From Bryobacteraceae bacterium (GTDB lineage: Bacteria > Acidobacteriota > Terriglobia > Bryobacterales > Bryobacteraceae), in the NCBI GenBank assembly GCA_023384675.1, contig JAHDVK010000038.1:1-35860 (forward strand): a DNA stretch of 35,860 bases. The letters are read 5' to 3'. Numbering within the stretch: the first letter of the stretch is position 1; each line of letters opens with the position of its first letter. Below are positions 1,499-22,103 of this stretch, one piece after another. The notes below the pieces were generated by a model. The model had not been told where the DNA came from, made no database searches, and saw nothing but the letters and a program-made list of their open reading frames with translations. Made by a program: the position numbers and the translations under genes.

Positions 1499-1715
1499 TC
1501 GAATCTCCTTTGTCTGTGGGTTGAGTGTGGTTGGGATCGTCGGCGGCTTGGTCTATGACGGCTATGCCAGACAGGTCTGGGGTGATTTCCACCCTTTTAT
1601 TTGTCAGTTTGAGCGCGTACAGATAGCCCGCGACGATATTCTGCTTGGTCAGTTCGAGTTGGCGCAGGTGTTCGGCCATGGCCTCAGGGAAAGGAATAAA
1701 GGTGGGCTGGCTCAT
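1491..1715 (-). CDS. Small hypothetical protein
   Basis: This 74-residue product overlaps its upstream neighbour by four bases (ATGA at 1712-1715) and its downstream neighbour by eight, so it is translationally coupled on both sides. The first half is predicted helical (residues 8-40, rich in Leu and Ala) and the last 20 residues are polar and probably disordered. No family is recognised. Conservation of the overlaps is the main reason to believe it is real. Confidence 0.55.
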   Translation of the reverse strand: MSQPTFIPFPEAMAEHLRQLELTKQNIVAGYLYALKLTNKRVEITPDLSGIAVIDQAADDPNHTQPTDKGDSNV

Positions 1716-2062
1716 CGATCCTCCCCACTCGGCTTCACTGGATCAATGGGCACAAACGGCTGCACCGCGGCCGCGGCGATGATCCGGGCTGCCTCCTGCT
1801 GGAGAACCGCGGCCTGGGCCAGCTTGCGTTGGGCATCCTCGGGCGGCGGATCCGGGAAGCGATCGAGCACCGGCTTCAGGATGCGGTAGTAGCATTCCTT
1901 GGTGAACCAGTCAGCCTTGCCGGCGTAGGCGGGGCCGCCCAGCACCGGGTTGGCGTTGCGTTCGGCGATGAAGGCGTCCATCTTCTCGGCCACGGCGGCC
2001 GGGATACGGAAGCCGATTTGCTCGTCGCCTTCTTCCTGAAACGTGATGGTGATGTCGGGCAT
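1712..2062 (-). CDS. Small tail-region protein, paralogue of the product at 4654-5007
   Basis: The product has 116 residues. The ATG at 2062 was chosen because it sits next to the end of the upstream gene and because the protein then aligns from residue 1 with the product at 4654-5007. Both begin MxxITITFxExGDE, continue with FxIPA and an Ala-rich helix, and share a central F...C...ILKPxL block. The last third differs. Each copy follows a large tail tip or fibre-type gene, so an assembly factor or fibre attachment protein is a reasonable guess. No named family is recognised. Confidence 0.65.
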   Translation of the reverse strand: MPDITITFQEEGDEQIGFRIPAAVAEKMDAFIAERNANPVLGGPAYAGKADWFTKECYYRILKPVLDRFPDPPPEDAQRKLAQAAVLQQEAARIIAAAAVQPFVPIDPVKPSGEDR

Positions 2063-2064
2063 GG

Positions 2065-2790
2065 TTATTCTCCTTCGGTGACCGTGATGAGGAACACCCC
2101 GCCCGTGTCCGTCGTGATGGAAAGGTACGGGTTGGTGCTGGGGTAGTTGTTCCCCGACTCGATGTAGAACTGACTCGTCCAGGTACCGGCTGAATAGTTC
2201 AGCGGCGGGTGAGGCAACTGGAAACGGACGTTGGTGAAACCGGTTTTGTTGATCTGAGAAAAGGCGCCCGAGCCGATCGTGCAAGTTTTGTATCCGGTCC
2301 CGCTCAGATTGGCGGCAGTGATCGTGCAGAGCACTGAGCCGCCGTTGTAATCGGTGGTGTTCACGCCGGGCGGCCAGTTGGTGATGGTATAGGCGGTGAG
2401 CGTCGGCGTACCGGACAGCGAGACGCTGGAGGCATAGAAGTGCAGGCTGGCGGCGGTGATGGTGGCTCCTGCTCCAATCGTGGACGTGTCGAAGCGCATG
2501 AAGGACTTGCGCTTATCCACATCCGTCTTCCAACCCGTCTCCCCGCCCACGAAGGTATTCGTGTAGCTGTAGCGGACATGGAAGGCCGCCCAGAGGTTCG
2601 GAACGTTGATGCCGTAGTAGGCCAAATTGGACACACTGGCGTCGAACGTGCTGAAGTACATCGGCTGGGTGTAGAAGTCGGTATACGTGGCACTGGCCAG
2701 TCCATCGTAATTGTTCGACGAGCCGTTGGCGAGGAAGAAGGAGGTCTGCGCCGCGAGGGGCAGGGCCAGCAGGATCAACAAAAGGCGCAT
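2065..2790 (-). CDS. Secreted-type, beta-rich fibre-associated protein
   Basis: The 241-residue product starts with a clear Sec signal peptide: an Arg at position 2, a Leu/Ile/Ala core to about residue 13, and an AAQ cleavage region. The mature part is beta-rich, full of Ser/Thr/Tyr/Gly, and has an RFDTSTIGAGATITAASLHFY segment. That segment recalls the DNRLRE-type beta-sandwich domains of extracellular proteins, but the match is by eye only. Exactly two cysteines, about 16 residues apart, could form a disulfide. The start ATG overlaps the stop of the fibre gene upstream (ATGA), so the two are made together. A signal peptide on a gene inside a tail operon is unusual, because tails are built in the cytoplasm. 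Confidence 0.65.
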   Translation of the reverse strand: MRLLLILLALPLAAQTSFFLANGSSNNYDGLASATYTDFYTQPMYFSTFDASVSNLAYYGINVPNLWAAFHVRYSYTNTFVGGETGWKTDVDKRKSFMRFDTSTIGAGATITAASLHFYASSVSLSGTPTLTAYTITNWPPGVNTTDYNGGSVLCTITAANLSGTGYKTCTIGSGAFSQINKTGFTNVRFQLPHPPLNYSAGTWTSQFYIESGNNYPSTNPYLSITTDTGGVFLITVTEGE

Positions 2791-4187
2791 CAGTAACTCC
2801 TCGTGTACTTGATCGAGACGGAGAGGTTCTTCACGGTGGAGGCCGAGGCGGTGACGAAGCCGAGACCCTGGCCCATGGCGACGCCCGGCGTGGTGATCGT
2901 CGATGTCGAGGCTCCCGTAGCGGAGCAGGTTAGCGCCGAGTGCATATTGGTGCCGTCGCTGCGCCGGATGGTGAGGGAGACGGTCCCGGCGTCGGTCCAG
3001 CAGGCGACCTCGGTGACGGTGGCGGAGTGGGCATGCGCCCGCCAGACGTTGTTGAAAGTGGTGTTGGGGATGACCGTGGCTGGATCACCACCGAAGCCGA
3101 AGTTGATCTGAGCGGGCAGAGCAGTGGTGAGGATTTCGCTCCAGGGGGTGGTATCCGACCCATTCGTCTTCCTTGCCCAAAATCTCTGATCGAAGAACGA
3201 ACCGGCGAACTGCATCGCATAGTTGTTCTCGGGGTTGTTGTGCCGAGTCGTCAGGAGGTGCCACCAGCTGGTGGCACCGGCCGGCCAGTTTGAATCCGGT
3301 TCGCTTGCTTGATAAAAGCCGCTGGGGAGACTGTTGGGGCTGGTGGTGTGGCCGACCAGGAGGGCATACTGCATCCAGAGTGGCCGGTTGCTGATCTTCG
3401 ACCAGTCGAGGGACGACAACCAGGCCGGATTCACGTAGCTGCCAGTGGAGTGGAGCACGGTGCCGGGCAGATCCTGGGCGGTGAGGCTGCGGAATCCAGG
3501 AGCAGCGGGCGATCCCGAAGTTGGGCCAGCGAGCACAGTGTTCGCATTCTGCGGCAGCCAGTCCATGGTCAGGATGCCCGATGCAGTGATGGGCGAACCG
3601 AGGACGGTGAACTGAGCCGGGGCCGACAATCCGATACTGGTGACCGTCCCGCCTTCTCCGCCTCCGCCATCTGGGACGAAACATCCGGTGGCATTGCCCT
3701 GTGTGTCGATGCCCCGCGAGGCCTGGCCCGTGGGACAATCCGTGCCATCCTGAGCCAGGGCCTCGGCGGCGGGAACCGGCCCGCTGATCTTCTCGCCGGC
3801 CAACGATGCCAGCCAGGCGGGGTTGGAATAGGTGCCGGTGGAGTAGAGTACCGTTGCCGGCAGATCCACTGCCAAGTGCGAGTGGACCGAGGGCGGGAAT
3901 GTGGCCGGCTTGTCTACGATTGACCCCCAGGGTAATTGCGTCACCCCCTGCTGCGTCCAGGTATTCGTACTGGTGCAGACATGGAGCCACTTCGTCAGCG
4001 GGGCGGTCGTCAAGTACACCGACTGACCGTAGATGCAAGTCTCCGGCAAGGTGGTCACCAGCCGGATTGGGGACGTCCACAGGGCGTTCGAGGCATCCAG
4101 CCGCCCATCGATATCAAGGCTACTGGGGACGCGCTGTGCCAGAAGTGCCCCGGCGGACAGCGAAAAAAGCAAAACGAGTCTTCCCAT
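2790..4187 (-). CDS. Tail fibre-like protein with signal peptide and pyocin-knob-like domain
   Basis: This is a protein of 465 residues from the ATG at 4187, which has GAGGAG upstream; a TTG two codons earlier is less likely. Residues 1-18 form a Sec signal (MGRLVLLFSLSAG, cleavage near LLAQ). The middle holds the common phage-fibre pattern GTVTSIGLSAPAQFTV followed by NTVLAGPTSG and a DLP motif. A unit of about 30 residues is present twice (DLPATVLYSTGTYSNPAWL and DLPGTVLHSTGSYVNPAWL). The WMQYALLVGH...SGFYQ...WSEIL region resembles the pyocin-knob domain of receptor-binding fibres. Six cysteines, an even number, fit an exported protein. Its likely role is host recognition, or display on the host surface if the signal is used. 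Confidence 0.75.
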   Translation of the reverse strand: MGRLVLLFSLSAGALLAQRVPSSLDIDGRLDASNALWTSPIRLVTTLPETCIYGQSVYLTTAPLTKWLHVCTSTNTWTQQGVTQLPWGSIVDKPATFPPSVHSHLAVDLPATVLYSTGTYSNPAWLASLAGEKISGPVPAAEALAQDGTDCPTGQASRGIDTQGNATGCFVPDGGGGEGGTVTSIGLSAPAQFTVLGSPITASGILTMDWLPQNANTVLAGPTSGSPAAPGFRSLTAQDLPGTVLHSTGSYVNPAWLSSLDWSKISNRPLWMQYALLVGHTTSPNSLPSGFYQASEPDSNWPAGATSWWHLLTTRHNNPENNYAMQFAGSFFDQRFWARKTNGSDTTPWSEILTTALPAQINFGFGGDPATVIPNTTFNNVWRAHAHSATVTEVACWTDAGTVSLTIRRSDGTNMHSALTCSATGASTSTITTPGVAMGQGLGFVTASASTVKNLSVSIKYTRSY

Positions 4188-4189
4188 AC

Positions 4190-4483
4190 TCAACTCCTCA
4201 CTACGACACGCCCGGTGAATGGGACCAAAAACGAGGCACTGATGCTGGCCGCATCCACAAGGGCGAAATCCACGATGGCGGCCCGCCCGGAGGAATCCCA
4301 GGCCTGCGCCACCACGTCCTGCGTGCCGAGATTGTGAGTGATTGTCACTGTCCCGGTGGCTGCATTCAGATTCTCAACGTGCTTGCCGCCCGCCGCGGCG
4401 TTGAGAGCGGCGAAGTTCGCATTGATGACGGCGCGGGCATCCTTGGGCGTGTCAGTCCCCTGAATGACGACGATGTTAGCCAT
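4190..4483 (-). CDS. Short tail fibre-like protein
   Basis: The 97-residue product resembles the C-terminal units of phage fibres. Near residue 45 it has the TITHNLGTQDVVAQAWD pattern, followed by a hydrophobic beta-strand pattern ending in FTGRVVV. The start ATG at 4483 follows immediately on the stop of the 57-residue gene upstream, and the gene ends three bases before the ATG of the large fibre gene. The N-terminal part, with IQGTDTPKDAR, could attach to the tail tip or to the neighbouring fibre. It has no signal peptide, unlike the next two genes. Confidence 0.65.
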   Translation of the reverse strand: MANIVVIQGTDTPKDARAVINANFAALNAAAGGKHVENLNAATGTVTITHNLGTQDVVAQAWDSSGRAAIVDFALVDAASISASFLVPFTGRVVVRS

Positions 4484-4657
4484 CTACCTGCCCCCCGGCG
4501 TGCCTATCCCCACAGGCCTGTTCGTCTCTGACGGCGGAACCTTCACACCCTGATACGTCTGCTGCGGCTCCCATGGGAAACTGGCCTCATCCCAGGTGAA
4601 GACCGCTTGCTCCCACGTCCCCTCATGCCAGATCGCCTTCATCTGTTCCAGATTCAC
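4484..4657 (-). CDS. Small Trp-rich protein between tail tip and fibre genes
   Basis: This 57-residue frame uses a GTG start that overlaps the previous stop (GTGA at 4654-4657) and ends directly before the next ATG. That fills the only gap in this part of the operon. The product begins MNLEQMKAIWHEGTWEQAVF, has four Trp residues within the first 30, and has a Pro/Gly-rich end. Very small proteins of this position and composition occur in tail-fibre cassettes, but I cannot name a family. Its reality rests on the coupled start and the fit into the gap. Confidence 0.55.
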   Translation of the reverse strand: MNLEQMKAIWHEGTWEQAVFTWDEASFPWEPQQTYQGVKVPPSETNRPVGIGTPGGR

Positions 4658-5007
4658 CGCCGCCCCTCCTCAACCCGGACGAGCGCGGAGCGCTCGATGG
4701 CCTGCTTGATCTGCCGCTCGATATCTTCCTGGTGGGCGCGAAGCTGCGCGATGGCTGGCATCGCCTGCGCGTGTTGCAGTAGGATCGGCTTCAGGATCTG
4801 CTCGTTGCAGACATGGAGGAAGAACTTGGCCTTCGATCCTTCGAAGGGGTTCTCCTGATGGGCGACGACCTGGTTGTTTTCGACCCGCATTTCCCGCCGC
4901 GTCAGACCATCGACGTGCGCCTGGATCGCGGCTGCGGCTTCGGCGGGGATGACGAACTGGACAGGCTCGTCGCCGTCCTCGTGAAACGTGATCGTGATCT
5001 TAGCCAT
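4654..5007 (-). CDS. Small tail-region protein, paralogue of the product at 1712-2062
   Basis: The product has 117 residues and an N-terminus, MAKITITFHEDGDE, that matches the product of 1712-2062 (MPDITITFQEEGDE). The FxIPAE block and a central F...C...ILKP.L block are also shared. The C-terminal third is a probable helix with many Gln, Glu and Arg. It lies three bases downstream of the giant tail tip gene and overlaps the 57-residue gene below. A duplicated tail accessory or fibre-assembly factor is the simplest reading. The function is not known. Confidence 0.65.
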   Translation of the reverse strand: MAKITITFHEDGDEPVQFVIPAEAAAAIQAHVDGLTRREMRVENNQVVAHQENPFEGSKAKFFLHVCNEQILKPILLQHAQAMPAIAQLRAHQEDIERQIKQAIERSALVRVEEGRR

Positions 5008-18713: not shown

Positions 18714-19083
18714 TTGCGCCTTCCTCATCCGGCTGATACCAGCCGCCGATCGAAAACCCGCTGATTTCGCCTCTGGCCGCCGCCTCGCGCAGCTCGGGAT
18801 CGTGCAGCTTCACACCGACAAACCAGGCTACGTGCGTGCCGATGAAATGGAACGTGGACTCGACCAGGGTCGCCTTCGCGGCCTGCTCGTGGTTCTCCTT
18901 GATCACCGCCTGGCCGGAGTAGTAGTCCTCCATGAACTGGTAGACCGCCTTGACCAGTTCCTCCTGGGGCACCACGTCGCCCTGGTCGTCGAGCAGGTCG
19001 GCGACCGAGGCGTAACCCCAGATGATGCCCAGTTCCTGGCTGGATTTCTCCACCCGGATCGACAACTTCACTTCGCGTCTCAT
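18706..19083 (-). CDS. XkdF-like putative prohead protease
   Basis: The 125-residue product matches the XkdF pattern (PF14550, putative serine protease): an early beta part with GYASVADLLDDQGDVV, a helix VKAVYQFMEDYYSG, then ENHEQ. VESTFHFIGTHVAWFVGVKLHD and the closing GEISGFSIGGWY follow. The conserved His (ENHEQ) and Ser (VESTF) fit a His/Ser protease active site. The gene immediately precedes and overlaps the capsid gene, as expected for an enzyme that matures the procapsid. Unlike its neighbours it starts after a 112-base noncoding stretch. Confidence 0.75.
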   Translation of the reverse strand: MRREVKLSIRVEKSSQELGIIWGYASVADLLDDQGDVVPQEELVKAVYQFMEDYYSGQAVIKENHEQAAKATLVESTFHFIGTHVAWFVGVKLHDPELREAAARGEISGFSIGGWYQPDEEGANG

Positions 19084-19105
19084 CCAGGCACCCCGCTACC
19101 GGCCC

Positions 19106-19150
19106 GGAACCCTGTCCCAAATCGTTTTGGGACACTCGGGGCATGGTTCC
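19106..19150. repeat. Hairpin-forming intergenic sequence after the dockerin gene
   Basis: The 112-base space 19084-19195 holds TGTCCCAAA (19113-19121), a TCGT loop and TTTGGGACA (19126-19134), a perfect nine-base stem. An outer pair, GGAACC (19106-19111) and GGTTCC (19145-19150), surrounds it. No T run follows on the minus strand. It resembles REP-type palindromes or a transcript-end stabiliser. It marks the only real gap in the head gene cluster, directly behind the unusual cohesin/dockerin gene. Confidence 0.5.
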
Positions 19151-19195
19151 CTATCCCCCCGGCTTCCGGGACGCGCCAGAATCGATTTACGCGGC

Positions 19196-19801
19196 TCATT
19201 GGTCGAGCGCCCCCCTCACGACCAGCAGCACATCCAGCAGGTCGCAGCGGCCGTCGCCGTTCTGGTCGTCGCTACAAGGCGACCGCCCGAATACCTGGTC
19301 GAGTATCAGCTGGAGATCCGCCATGTTCGTGACGCCGTCGCCGTTGAGGTCCGACCGCGCGAGCACGCGGATTTCGTAGACGGGGCCGGATGCGATCGAC
19401 TGAACCACGGCTTGCGCACTGGCGGCCATCAGGCCGGACAGCGGGATTTGATACAGCCCCTTCGCTGCGGTGGAGGGCACGGTGACCGTGTATTTCCCGA
19501 CTTCGCCCGGCGCCATCGTCGTTTGGTTCAAGGCCACCAGGAGACAGAGCGTGGCCTGCTCCGAACAGTAAAGGGTCTTTTCGGCGGCCACCGCCGCGGC
19601 TCCGGCCTGCGCCGCCGCCGTCGCGCCCGCGGGCAGCTCGAGAGTCCACTGCAAGCCCGCCGGCCTCGGACCAGGCGCGGCCAGGGACAGTACCAGATCG
19701 ATACTTTGCCCCGGCCGCGCCGTTGCGGGGCCGGAAAGGGTTAGCGTGGTCTGCGCCGCGAGGGCGGCGGACAGACTGATCAACAAGAGCAGTGTCTTCA
19801 T
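19196..19801 (-). CDS. Secreted cohesin-like/dockerin protein inside the head operon
   Basis: The product has 201 residues from the ATG at 19801, behind GGGAGGG. Residues 1-17 form a Sec signal (MKTLLLLISLSAALAAQ). Residues 18-145 are a beta-rich domain with the TLTLSGPATARPGQSIDLVL start and GLQWTLELP segment typical of cohesin-like folds. Residues 151-190 hold two complete calcium-binding dockerin loops, DLNGDGVTNMAD and DQNGDGRCDLLD, with Asp/Asn at positions 1, 3, 5, 9 and 12. Four cysteines occur as two pairs. Dockerins bind cohesins to assemble extracellular complexes. The start overlaps the minor head stop as ATGA, so it is translated with virion genes. Cargo for the lysogen, a cell-surface factor or a virion decoration are all possible. 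Confidence 0.8.
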   Translation of the reverse strand: MKTLLLLISLSAALAAQTTLTLSGPATARPGQSIDLVLSLAAPGPRPAGLQWTLELPAGATAAAQAGAAAVAAEKTLYCSEQATLCLLVALNQTTMAPGEVGKYTVTVPSTAAKGLYQIPLSGLMAASAQAVVQSIASGPVYEIRVLARSDLNGDGVTNMADLQLILDQVFGRSPCSDDQNGDGRCDLLDVLLVVRGALDQ

Positions 19802-20715
19802 TGTCCCTCCCAAATTCTTTCCGGGTCGATCTGAAACTCGTCGTTCACTACCGGCGACATCCAACAGCGGCAGTTGATCAGCTCGTGCGGCGGCAGACTT
19901 GGATCGCTCGGCGAATCGGCGAGGTACGTGTTGCCGTCGTCGCTGGCCAGCGCGAACTTCTCATCGATCCCCGCCTCGGCGCCGTCCATCGCCTGGTGCG
20001 ACGGCCGGGTGTTCTGGCCCAGCGCATTCCATTTCTTGCGCTGCACGCCGTTGCGCCGGAACGTCTCCAGTTGCGCCAACTCGGCCGCGATCGCCGTCTC
20101 GGTCAGCGCGAAGCGCTTCGCTTGCGCCATCGTCACGTCCCCCAACTGCTGGCGCAGATCGGCCAGGAAGCGCCGGTCATACGGGTTGCGGCCCAACTCG
20201 TAGAATTGCCGCACCATGGACTCCATCACGCCGGCGATGTTGTTCCGGGTGGCGAAGATCTCGGCCGATACCCGTTCGAGCAAGGCCGCGCGGATCGTTT
20301 CGTTACGCAGGGAGAAATCCGCGGCGGCGATGCCAAGCTGCCGCAAGGCGAATTTTGCGGCTTCCTCAAAGGTCTCCTGCCTCGTGGCCTCCACGATCGC
20401 CGCGGCCACTGTCTCGACGTCGTCGTAATAGCTGAAGCCGGCCAGCAGGTCGATAATCAGTTGCCGGTCCTTTTCCGTGAGCGCCTTCTCCACCCGAGCC
20501 GCGTCGACGGCGTCTCCCTGGACATGGCGCGCCAGCCGGTCCCACCCCTTCGTGTGCTGGAGATGCGTAAACAGCGCGTCGATTCCGCCGCTCCAGTACG
20601 TCAGCACCTCGCGGTAGAGCTTGCGGGACGCGCGGACGCGATCGAAGCGGCGCGCGCGCCTCACCCTCCTGAGAAGGCGGGCCGTGCCGGTCAGTATGGC
20701 CGCAGCGGCGATCAT
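19798..20715 (-). CDS. Minor head protein, SPP1 gp7 / Mu gpF-like
   Basis: The 305-residue product is mainly helical and ends with the family signature. RRNGVQRKKWNALGQNTRPSHQAMDG (about residues 222-247) is followed by LPPHELINCRCW, the Cys-Arg-Cys block of the phage head morphogenesis family (PF04233). Such proteins associate with the portal and enter the procapsid, in some phages to help DNA ejection. The position right behind the portal gene (ATGA overlap) is the rule for the family. The N-terminus contains an Arg-rich amphipathic stretch. Confidence 0.85.
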   Translation of the reverse strand: MIAAAAILTGTARLLRRVRRARRFDRVRASRKLYREVLTYWSGGIDALFTHLQHTKGWDRLARHVQGDAVDAARVEKALTEKDRQLIIDLLAGFSYYDDVETVAAAIVEATRQETFEEAAKFALRQLGIAAADFSLRNETIRAALLERVSAEIFATRNNIAGVMESMVRQFYELGRNPYDRRFLADLRQQLGDVTMAQAKRFALTETAIAAELAQLETFRRNGVQRKKWNALGQNTRPSHQAMDGAEAGIDEKFALASDDGNTYLADSPSDPSLPPHELINCRCWMSPVVNDEFQIDPERIWEGQ

Positions 20716-22103
20716 AGTTGTACCGCCTTGCGGACTTCCCGCTGGATCTCTTCAATGGCGGCCTCGAACGCCGCGGCCCCACCCAGGGGGAGATCCCCAT
20801 CTGACAACGGATCCAGATCCGGGAATCGCTCCCGCCGGACCTCGTTCGGGACCAGCACGCCCCGGTCGAGATAGGTAGCGTCGACGCGGGAATTCGCCTC
20901 GCGGTCATCGAGATCCCAGGCCTCGAATTCGAACCACAGGTCGCTTACCTTGAACCCGCGCTCGATGATTTCGCTTAACACCGAGACAACCATTTCCTGG
21001 CCCGGCGTAACGATCGAGTTCTTGTACTCTTCGATCTGCTCGGTCGCCAAGTTGCCGCCGAGTTTTCCCGATTCGACGATGCCCACCTTCTGCGGCGGCA
21101 CACCATGGGCGTGGAGCAGCTCGTCGCGGCAGTCCTGCCGCAGCAGCCGGAAACTCGCCTCGCGCGCTGAATCCGAGGTGAGCTTCTCGAACCGGATCTT
21201 CGATCCGTTCGGCGCTTCAAGCACCAAGGTCTTGTGCGCCTGCCCCTTCAGGTGCGTCCGGAAGTACTCCTGGATGACCTCGACGGCATCCTCGGCCGCT
21301 TCGCCCTCTATGACCACCGCATAGTCGGGGATGGCGTTGTTGTTGAAGAACTGGAGGTTATATTCGGCCACCAGCGTCCATAGGGCCACCGCGTTCCACG
21401 CCGGCATGATGGCCGGAACTCCGTAAAACGGACTCCAGGGGCTGTAGCGGCTGAAGTGCGTCAGGAATGTGCCCGACCATTTGGCCTTCAGAGGGTCCTT
21501 CTCCGGCAGATCCGCGTAGTGCTCCTCCTCGACGAAGTAGTCCCGGAAATGCGCGTAGCGGCCCTGCTTGTGCTGCACATAACCGAGACCATCCAACCGG
21601 ACCCAGATCTCCGGCGCCGGGGCATGGGCCAGCTCGGCCGGCTGGCCGGTCCGATCCGGGATGATTTCGAGGAATCCGTTGCCGATAGCCTCGTAATCTG
21701 TCCAAACGCAGCCCATGCCTTGAGCGAAGCTGCGCTTGCCGAACGCCTTCCGGAAGAACCGTTCGATCTCCAGACGCTTTCCCTCGGGACCTTCACCCGC
21801 TATACGCCAGGGCCGCCCGGTGATGTCTTTCGCCTTCGCGCGCACCGCCCGGGCATGGTAGGTGTTCACCACGAGAGCATAGGCGAACAGAGTCAGATCA
21901 AAGGGCCGGACCGCGCAGTTCACGCCGTCCAGGCTCACCCCGACGTCCGTGGGCACCTGGGCGCTGCCATCCGACGCCTGCATCGCCTTCAGCGTGTGCT
22001 GCCAGCGAGCGGACTCGTAGCGGGCATCGAGCAGCAGCGGGGCGTCGAGATTAACTACGCGCCCGGCGTGCGAATCGAACAGATAGGCCTTCACTCCGCT
22101 CAT
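20712..22103 (-). CDS. Portal protein, PBSX/HK97-like
   Basis: The 463-residue product has the portal pattern of PBSX-type phages: HARAVRAKAKDITGRPW near residue 95, then DYEAIGNGFLEIIPD. GVPAIMPAWNAVALWTLVAEYN, FFNNNAIPDYAVV, and an IVTPGQEMVVSVLSEIIERGF helix near residue 345 follow. It forms the dodecameric channel at the capsid vertex for DNA packaging and exit. It overlaps terminase by four bases and the minor head gene by four bases. It is not the DUF935 portal found in Mu itself, which is evidence that the head module is not Mu-derived. Confidence 0.85.
   Translation of the reverse strand: MSGVKAYLFDSHAGRVVNLDAPLLLDARYESARWQHTLKAMQASDGSAQVPTDVGVSLDGVNCAVRPFDLTLFAYALVVNTYHARAVRAKAKDITGRPWRIAGEGPEGKRLEIERFFRKAFGKRSFAQGMGCVWTDYEAIGNGFLEIIPDRTGQPAELAHAPAPEIWVRLDGLGYVQHKQGRYAHFRDYFVEEEHYADLPEKDPLKAKWSGTFLTHFSRYSPWSPFYGVPAIMPAWNAVALWTLVAEYNLQFFNNNAIPDYAVVIEGEAAEDAVEVIQEYFRTHLKGQAHKTLVLEAPNGSKIRFEKLTSDSAREASFRLLRQDCRDELLHAHGVPPQKVGIVESGKLGGNLATEQIEEYKNSIVTPGQEMVVSVLSEIIERGFKVSDLWFEFEAWDLDDREANSRVDATYLDRGVLVPNEVRRERFPDLDPLSDGDLPLGGAAAFEAAIEEIQREVRKAVQL

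Follow-up and report, generated by a model that had tools for sequence, protein, structure and literature searches.

A recurrent phage-borne gene for a small protein with cohesin-like and dockerin domains and a Sec-like signal

Why should a Mu-like prophage carry, among its head genes, a gene for a small protein with a cohesin-like domain, a dockerin domain and a Sec-like signal? Cohesin-dockerin pairs rank among the strongest non-covalent protein links. Non-cellulosomal cohesin and dockerin proteins occur in bacteria and archaea, and their function is described as largely open (Peer et al. 2009, as cited in PMC9012536). We analyzed one such gene, its protein and its relatives in phages and host genomes.

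The P0001 gene and its surroundings

The DNA analyzed here, referred to as the window, is the entire contig C20 (35,860 bases) of a Bryobacteraceae assembly. We read it as a Mu-like prophage whose genes are on the minus strand: a transposase and transposition genes, terminase, portal and MuF genes, a protease-like gene and tail genes; we take its virion structural gene as the capsid gene. A first-pass annotation, made from the sequence alone, had placed a protein of 201 residues at 19196–19801, and both coordinates and length were correct. The gene lies on the minus strand, from 19801 to 19196 (stop codon, 19196–19198), and the plus-strand frame over the same positions is interrupted by an internal stop. 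We refer to its protein as P0001 (201 aa) and studied it with Pfam, AlphaFold2 and Foldseek. A 50% identical copy (residues 7–200) is present in another prophage of the same genome, indicating that the gene is not a chance frame.

The ATG of the gene overlaps the stop codon of the MuF-like minor head gene (19798–20715, minus strand; Pfam Phage_Mu_F and PHROG head morphogenesis) as ATGA (junction GGGACAATGAAG), a coupling that had already been annotated. The portal gene (20712–22103, minus strand) was identified by PHROG and Pfam. The next gene past P0001 (18706–19083, minus strand) is head maturation protease-like by its matches to PHROG protease families (E 9.6e-10 and 1.6e-6); its best PHROG match is labelled DNA methyltransferase (E 2.7e-15). 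Sec-like signals were called using crude rule-based scans, not SignalP. Such a signal, which the first-pass annotation had also proposed, was found at the start of P0001 (MKTLLLLISLSAALAAQ; residues ~1–15; 19757–19801, minus strand), with cleavage estimated at residue 15 or 23 depending on the scan.

A MuF search over 237 genomes of the family gave two matches at E ≤ 1e-10, the genome of the window and a second genome, G208. The G208 prophage is collinear with the window from the transposase through the tail. There, a 126-base spacer separates MuF from the protease-like gene; the gene order is unchanged and a cohesin-dockerin gene is lacking. The DNA similarity between the two prophages ends at window position 19805 and picks up again at 19125. 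By this sequence comparison, the P0001 gene is an insertion between MuF and the protease-like gene. A TTGGGACA stretch was found in the window spacer and also in the G208 spacer. The window spacer contains a perfect 9-bp hairpin (TGTCCCAAA/TTTGGGACA; 19113–19134) ahead of the protease-like gene. A repeat-borne cassette was considered and is unsupported because this hairpin occurs at a single place in the genome, allowing up to two mismatches.

Phage morons, such as lom and bor of lambda, are exported accessory genes among late genes. The P0001 gene likewise encodes a Sec-like signal, lies among late genes and is an extra gene missing in a close relative (G208), whereas it differs from lom and bor in its cohesin-dockerin content and in that its own promoter and terminator were not found. 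No promoter-like site was detected in 18900–20800 by a scan for sigma-70 types, and the sole terminator-like site was on the opposite strand, with 1.3 expected. The gene had originally been described as part of a virion operon. Its position within the head operon was confirmed, and the reading of P0001 as a virion structural protein was rejected, as P0001 has a Sec-like signal, no counterpart in the G208 module and homologues elsewhere in other phages.

Dockerin and cohesin assignment

The dockerin domain corresponds to residues ~148–201 (19199–19360, minus strand; C176 and C186). It contains the two complete calcium loops noticed earlier, DLNGDGVTNMAD at residues 151–162 (19316–19351, minus strand) and DQNGDGRCDLLD at residues 179–190 (19232–19267, minus strand). 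Pfam Dockerin_1 (PF00404) matched P0001 with E 7.2e-5 and 23.3 bits, a marginal pass of the curated cut-off of 22.9. The copy on C47, the second prophage of the same genome, scored 25.7 bits and that of the virus contig L082 scored 15.7 bits, below the cut-off. A profile of three phage copies matched the PDB dockerin 2y3n_B (E 1e-5). In the model described below, each loop is followed by a helix (residues 160–170 and 188–198), as in type I dockerins. When the whole genome was searched in six frames with PF00404, no match was obtained at E ≤ 0.001, and thus the P0001 gene itself was missed by this search.

The N-terminal beta domain corresponds to residues ~18–147 (19361–19750, minus strand; C79 and C86). 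P0001 did not match Pfam Cohesin (PF00963) up to E 10, nor did the C47 and L082 copies up to E 0.1. Among relatives of this domain, 33 of 46 in one set and 9 of 14 in another matched Pfam Cohesin. The profile of three phage copies found no cohesin in the PDB up to E 0.1, and cohesin matches required host relatives; a 14-row profile matched solved cohesins in the PDB with E 2.2e-9, and a 46-row profile, in which P0001 is not included, did so with E 8.9e-13.

Structure prediction had been proposed as a check in the first-pass annotation. An initial model on a three-row alignment reached a pLDDT of only 42.5. Using an input of eight rows, six of them different, the best AlphaFold2 model of P0001 had a pLDDT of 88.4 and a pTM of 0.78, and the other four models had pLDDT values of 86.3, 83.1, 83.1 and 56.2. 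When the model was compared with the PDB using Foldseek, the nine best matches were cohesins (E 3.9e-8 to 3.6e-5), including non-cellulosomal ones of Clostridium perfringens and Archaeoglobus. Twelve of the best 50 PDB matches listed were cohesins, and the rest were mostly integrins and antibodies. The model and these matches agree with a cohesin beta-sandwich fold. Judging from its relatives, the profile matches to solved cohesins and the predicted model, the N-terminal domain is cohesin-like, which bears out the beta domain of the first-pass annotation. A structural search of BFVD gave 15 matches at E ≤ 0.001, none of them named cohesin or dockerin. One viral protein that already bears a dockerin label, A0A8S5M688 ('Dockerin type 1 [Myoviridae sp. 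ctCL221]'; 211 aa), came at rank 21 and matched the P0001 model weakly (E 2.1e-3, TM 0.24).

P0001 shares the cohesin fold and the dockerin loops with the cellulosome cohesins and type I dockerins of Clostridium and Ruminococcus (PDB 2vn5, 5n5p and 2y3n), but it has neither an enzyme domain nor a multi-cohesin scaffoldin, with one of each domain per chain. With the non-cellulosomal proteins it has the same two domain families outside the cellulosome in common; here, they form a phage-borne, stand-alone, two-domain protein of ~200 aa.

Homologues in other phages and the history of the gene

We found stand-alone cohesin-dockerin homologues in six further phage or provirus contexts, namely C47, L082/L083, L125/L126, L127, L128 (contig C35 of genome G199) and L130. 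The phage copies are open frames with 24–50% identity to P0001, and all seven have a Sec-like start. Some of the homologues adjoin tail-fibre-like genes, others are close to integrases, and one is again situated between MuF and a head protease-like gene. As to the survey of related prophages suggested earlier, the sole related Mu-like prophage found, that of G208, does not carry the gene, and the homologues lie in these six other contexts.

The terminase and portal of C47 differ from those of the window, and the distal tail module is common to both. The C47 copy, 50% identical to P0001, is located between a tail fibre gene and its Sec-signalled neighbour, again with start/stop overlaps; the gene is missing from this junction in the three others examined (the window, contig C26 and virus contig L037). 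Scans of IMG/VR yielded the copies of L082/L083, L125/L126, L127, L128 and L130. As these scans reach only contigs with matching short patterns, the number of copies is a lower bound. The virus contigs carrying copies are presumably from soil. L083 is nearly identical to L082 (20,573 of 20,591 positions), and L128 and the G199 contig do not differ over 12,167 bases, so that the latter two are not independent. L125 and L126 have only 2.2 kb in common, at 94%, and both keep the gene. In L125, MuF and a protease-like gene again flank the cohesin-dockerin gene, which shares this interval with a connector gene and is encoded on the strand opposite to MuF. Terminase, portal, integrase or connector genes show the phage nature of the window, C47, L082, L125 and L127. 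The case is weaker for L128, with integrase, exonuclease and DarB-like genes, and for L130, an IMG/VR record with a PHROG match to an RNA-binding protein and with fibre-like genes that bear signals but match no PHROG.

The first-loop aspartates are present in all seven phage copies. Two loops with intact aspartates are found in four of them (the window, C47, L082 and L128, the last with T at position 3 of its first loop), and L125, L127 and L130 have a single loop, the second being missing. The four cysteines are invariant in five of the seven and are not all retained in L127 and L130. Among 50,697 phage records, no match was obtained with P0001 (E ≤ 0.01), the L082 protein (E ≤ 1) or a host cohesin-dockerin protein (E ≤ 0.1). 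A profile scan of genome contigs gave four distant loci that, by eye, have dockerins but no such cohesin, and obvious phage genes were seen by eye around none of six other short-frame cohesin matches.

Phylogenetic analysis was performed on 52 rows, including seven phage rows; L050 was left out as a duplicate of L128. A nine-row group (support 95/88) comprised the seven phage copies and two chromosomal genes, and chromosomal members of the family are L003 and L049. In this tree the phage rows need three changes, and a test of a single clade (p-AU 0.076) neither demonstrates nor rejects a common origin of all the phage copies. A smaller tree had three phage rows, which formed one group (93/82); it counted G199:C35 (L050) as host, whereas the 52-row tree counts G199:C35 as phage. 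The window, C47 and L082 copies form a firm group (100/99), yet they occupy three different gene positions and the best terminase PHROGs of their phages differ, indicating that the gene has moved between or within phages. The cohesin-like domain was found in 63 of 237 host-family genomes (two-copy profile, E ≤ 1e-6), mostly in longer frames, and in a wider draw 7 of 396 genomes matched the three-copy profile at E ≤ 1e-10.

Neither cohesins and dockerins nor accessory genes of phages are new. Gene 40 of vibriophage VvAW1 is reported to resemble dockerin type I proteins by blastp (PMC3558961), so a dockerin-like phage gene is already in print; the passage on gene 40 does not mention a cohesin, a signal or such surroundings. 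Passages in other papers describe a coliphage protein with a dockerin-linked carbohydrate-binding module (PMC5967307) and a type VI effector with a dockerin repeat (PMC5955473). In the literature searched, we found no report of a dockerin, a cohesin and an export signal together with repeated insertion among phage genes.

Several neighbouring observations were made by eye. In L129, a dockerin is accompanied by an Fn3-like part in place of the cohesin; this apparent Fn3-dockerin protein (L129:9800–10306), on a 102-kb virus contig, has a layout like that of the dockerin protein at the host C8 locus described below. The C47 copy (L031:11331–11500) has ~35 extra residues between the signal and the cohesin, and then what looks like the remnant of a second signal, which might reflect recombination between signal-coding ends. 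The gene upstream of the cohesin-dockerin gene on G199:C35 (L116:9986–10855) contains INTNFAALDAS, which resembles INANFAALNAA of window 4190–4483. Its C-terminal part matches phrog_1454, which we take to resemble Acb2/Tad1-type proteins.

Candidate partners, fibre-like genes and possible roles

From these sequence comparisons, the P0001 gene is real, mobile and phage-borne, and its product is probably exported and acts at the host surface. We tentatively favour, at a little under an even chance, a phage accessory gene for a minimal exported adaptor that docks with host cohesin/dockerin surface proteins. Sequence and model give the domains, the signal, the insertion, the recurrence and the candidate partners; we infer export, late timing, calcium binding, docking and a benefit. 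Such an adaptor would consist of a signal peptide, one cohesin socket and one dockerin plug. It would be made along with the late head genes and exported by Sec, and would bind calcium and fold outside the cytoplasm. Its dockerin may bind cohesins carried by host surface proteins, or a host dockerin protein may be captured by its cohesin, and the host surface scaffold would thereby be capped or extended. Most plausibly, the benefit would be that receptors are hidden from further phages or that adhesion is altered before release.

The 14-row profile matched five places in the own genome at E ≤ 0.01, two phage copies and three places on contig C8, where two cohesin proteins and one dockerin protein are encoded within 4 kb. 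One C8 cohesin is 38% identical to P0001, with the LQW, LYC and CLLV motifs in common, and a long repeat-rich protein seems to be the continuation of one C8 cohesin protein beyond a stretch of 100 N. Neighbouring small genes for a cohesin and a dockerin were also seen by eye in other genomes (L119 and L121). The C8 proteins and this arrangement suggest that plausible docking partners exist, to which P0001 may bind. A cellulosome was rejected as an explanation, since the own genome gives just these five places, two of them phage copies. Against the adaptor stand the marginal dockerin score, the still lower score of the L082 copy, the single loop of three of the seven phage copies, the failure of Pfam Cohesin to match P0001 and the C47 and L082 copies, and a background of 19 in 113 for the signal scan. 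The late operon also suggests export only shortly before lysis, leaving little time to remodel the surface.

As a rival reading, which we consider rather unlikely, the gene could be lysogenic conversion cargo, the prophage providing its host with an additional cohesin-dockerin protein that would serve in adhesion or extracellular assembly. The carrier elements have a transposase and transposition genes or integrases, the family has chromosomal members (L003 and L049), and hosts have the neighbouring small genes of L119 and L121, all of which would suit such cargo; it fits poorly with the overlap of the gene with the late gene MuF and with the result of the sigma-70-type promoter scan of 18900–20800.

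In the window, a Sec-like signal was called at the first start in 3 of 34 listed genes, P0001, a tail fibre and its neighbour, and in one more at an inner start. The tail-fibre-like gene (2790–4193, minus strand) has a C47 homologue that matches tail PHROGs, including tail fibre and minor tail protein. The C47 cohesin-dockerin gene lies between the counterparts of this gene and of the neighbour (2065–2790, minus strand), whose protein matched CBM96 with 19.5 bits, below the cut-off of 26; the C47 homologue of the latter had no CBM96 match. A fibre query gathered 11 virus contigs, mostly via a short match, two of which (L045 and L046) carry the same genes. All 11 had a signal-like start upstream of the match, and in nine this start fell no more than 60 codons into the frame. 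As background, the scan called a signal in 19 of 113 ORFs of these loci at the first start and in 27 of 113 when 60 codons were allowed; some of these ORFs belong to the same cassettes. When four fibre-query proteins were scanned, one (L045) matched tail-fibre PHROGs and three matched no PHROG, which speaks against regarding every one of them as a tail fibre. Fibre-like genes with Sec-like signals were seen in window 2065–4193, L031, L037–L047, L082 and L130, frequently with two or three such genes in a row.

In three of seven contexts (C47, L082 and L130), the gene is part of a run of Sec-signalled fibre-like genes or directly follows one. P0001 could thus be a virion accessory, released at lysis with exported fibre-like proteins, that sticks to virions or fibres and helps to hold the host surface matrix. 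We consider this unlikely. Tail assembly in the cytoplasm is at odds with exported fibres: the fibre-like and cohesin-dockerin proteins would sit outside the cytoplasm, whereas virions assemble inside. The Sec-like signals of the fibre and its neighbour in the window and the sister prophage make a virion part less likely than an exported protein. Moreover, Pfam found no cohesin or dockerin in the fibre-like proteins scanned (window 2790–4193, L031:9814–11328 and three of L082), and G208 does not carry the gene. More speculatively, a mobile family of minimal scaffoldins in phages of these soil bacteria may hijack the host cohesin-dockerin surface network and, with Sec-exported fibre-like proteins, form a phage-made layer on the infected cell that masks receptors or tethers progeny, a scheme that we regard as rather unlikely. 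A captured host gene without a selected role in the phage would explain the variable position, the absence from G208 and the loss of the second loop in three of seven copies, but is improbable given open frames in seven contexts, the first-loop aspartates and Sec-like start kept in every copy, and the retention of the gene in L125 and L126.

If the exported adaptor is correct, whole adaptors found repeatedly in phages would provide a selective setting in which to test the purpose of cohesins and dockerins outside cellulosomes. The locus also points to phage proteins, including fibre-like ones, that may leave the infected cell by export and are not simply packed in virions.

Two further features of the tail cassette were observed. 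Small proteins encoded at window 4654–5007 and ~1712–2100 (minus strand) are alike at their starts (ITITFHEDGDEPVQF and ITITFQEEGDEQIGF) and bracket the Sec-signalled cassette; the 4654–5007 protein is 31% identical to the C47 counterpart of the ~1712–2100 protein, and the two are possibly fibre assembly helpers. A third prophage carrying this tail cassette appears to be split between the end of contig C26 and the start of contig C13 of the same genome (G000).
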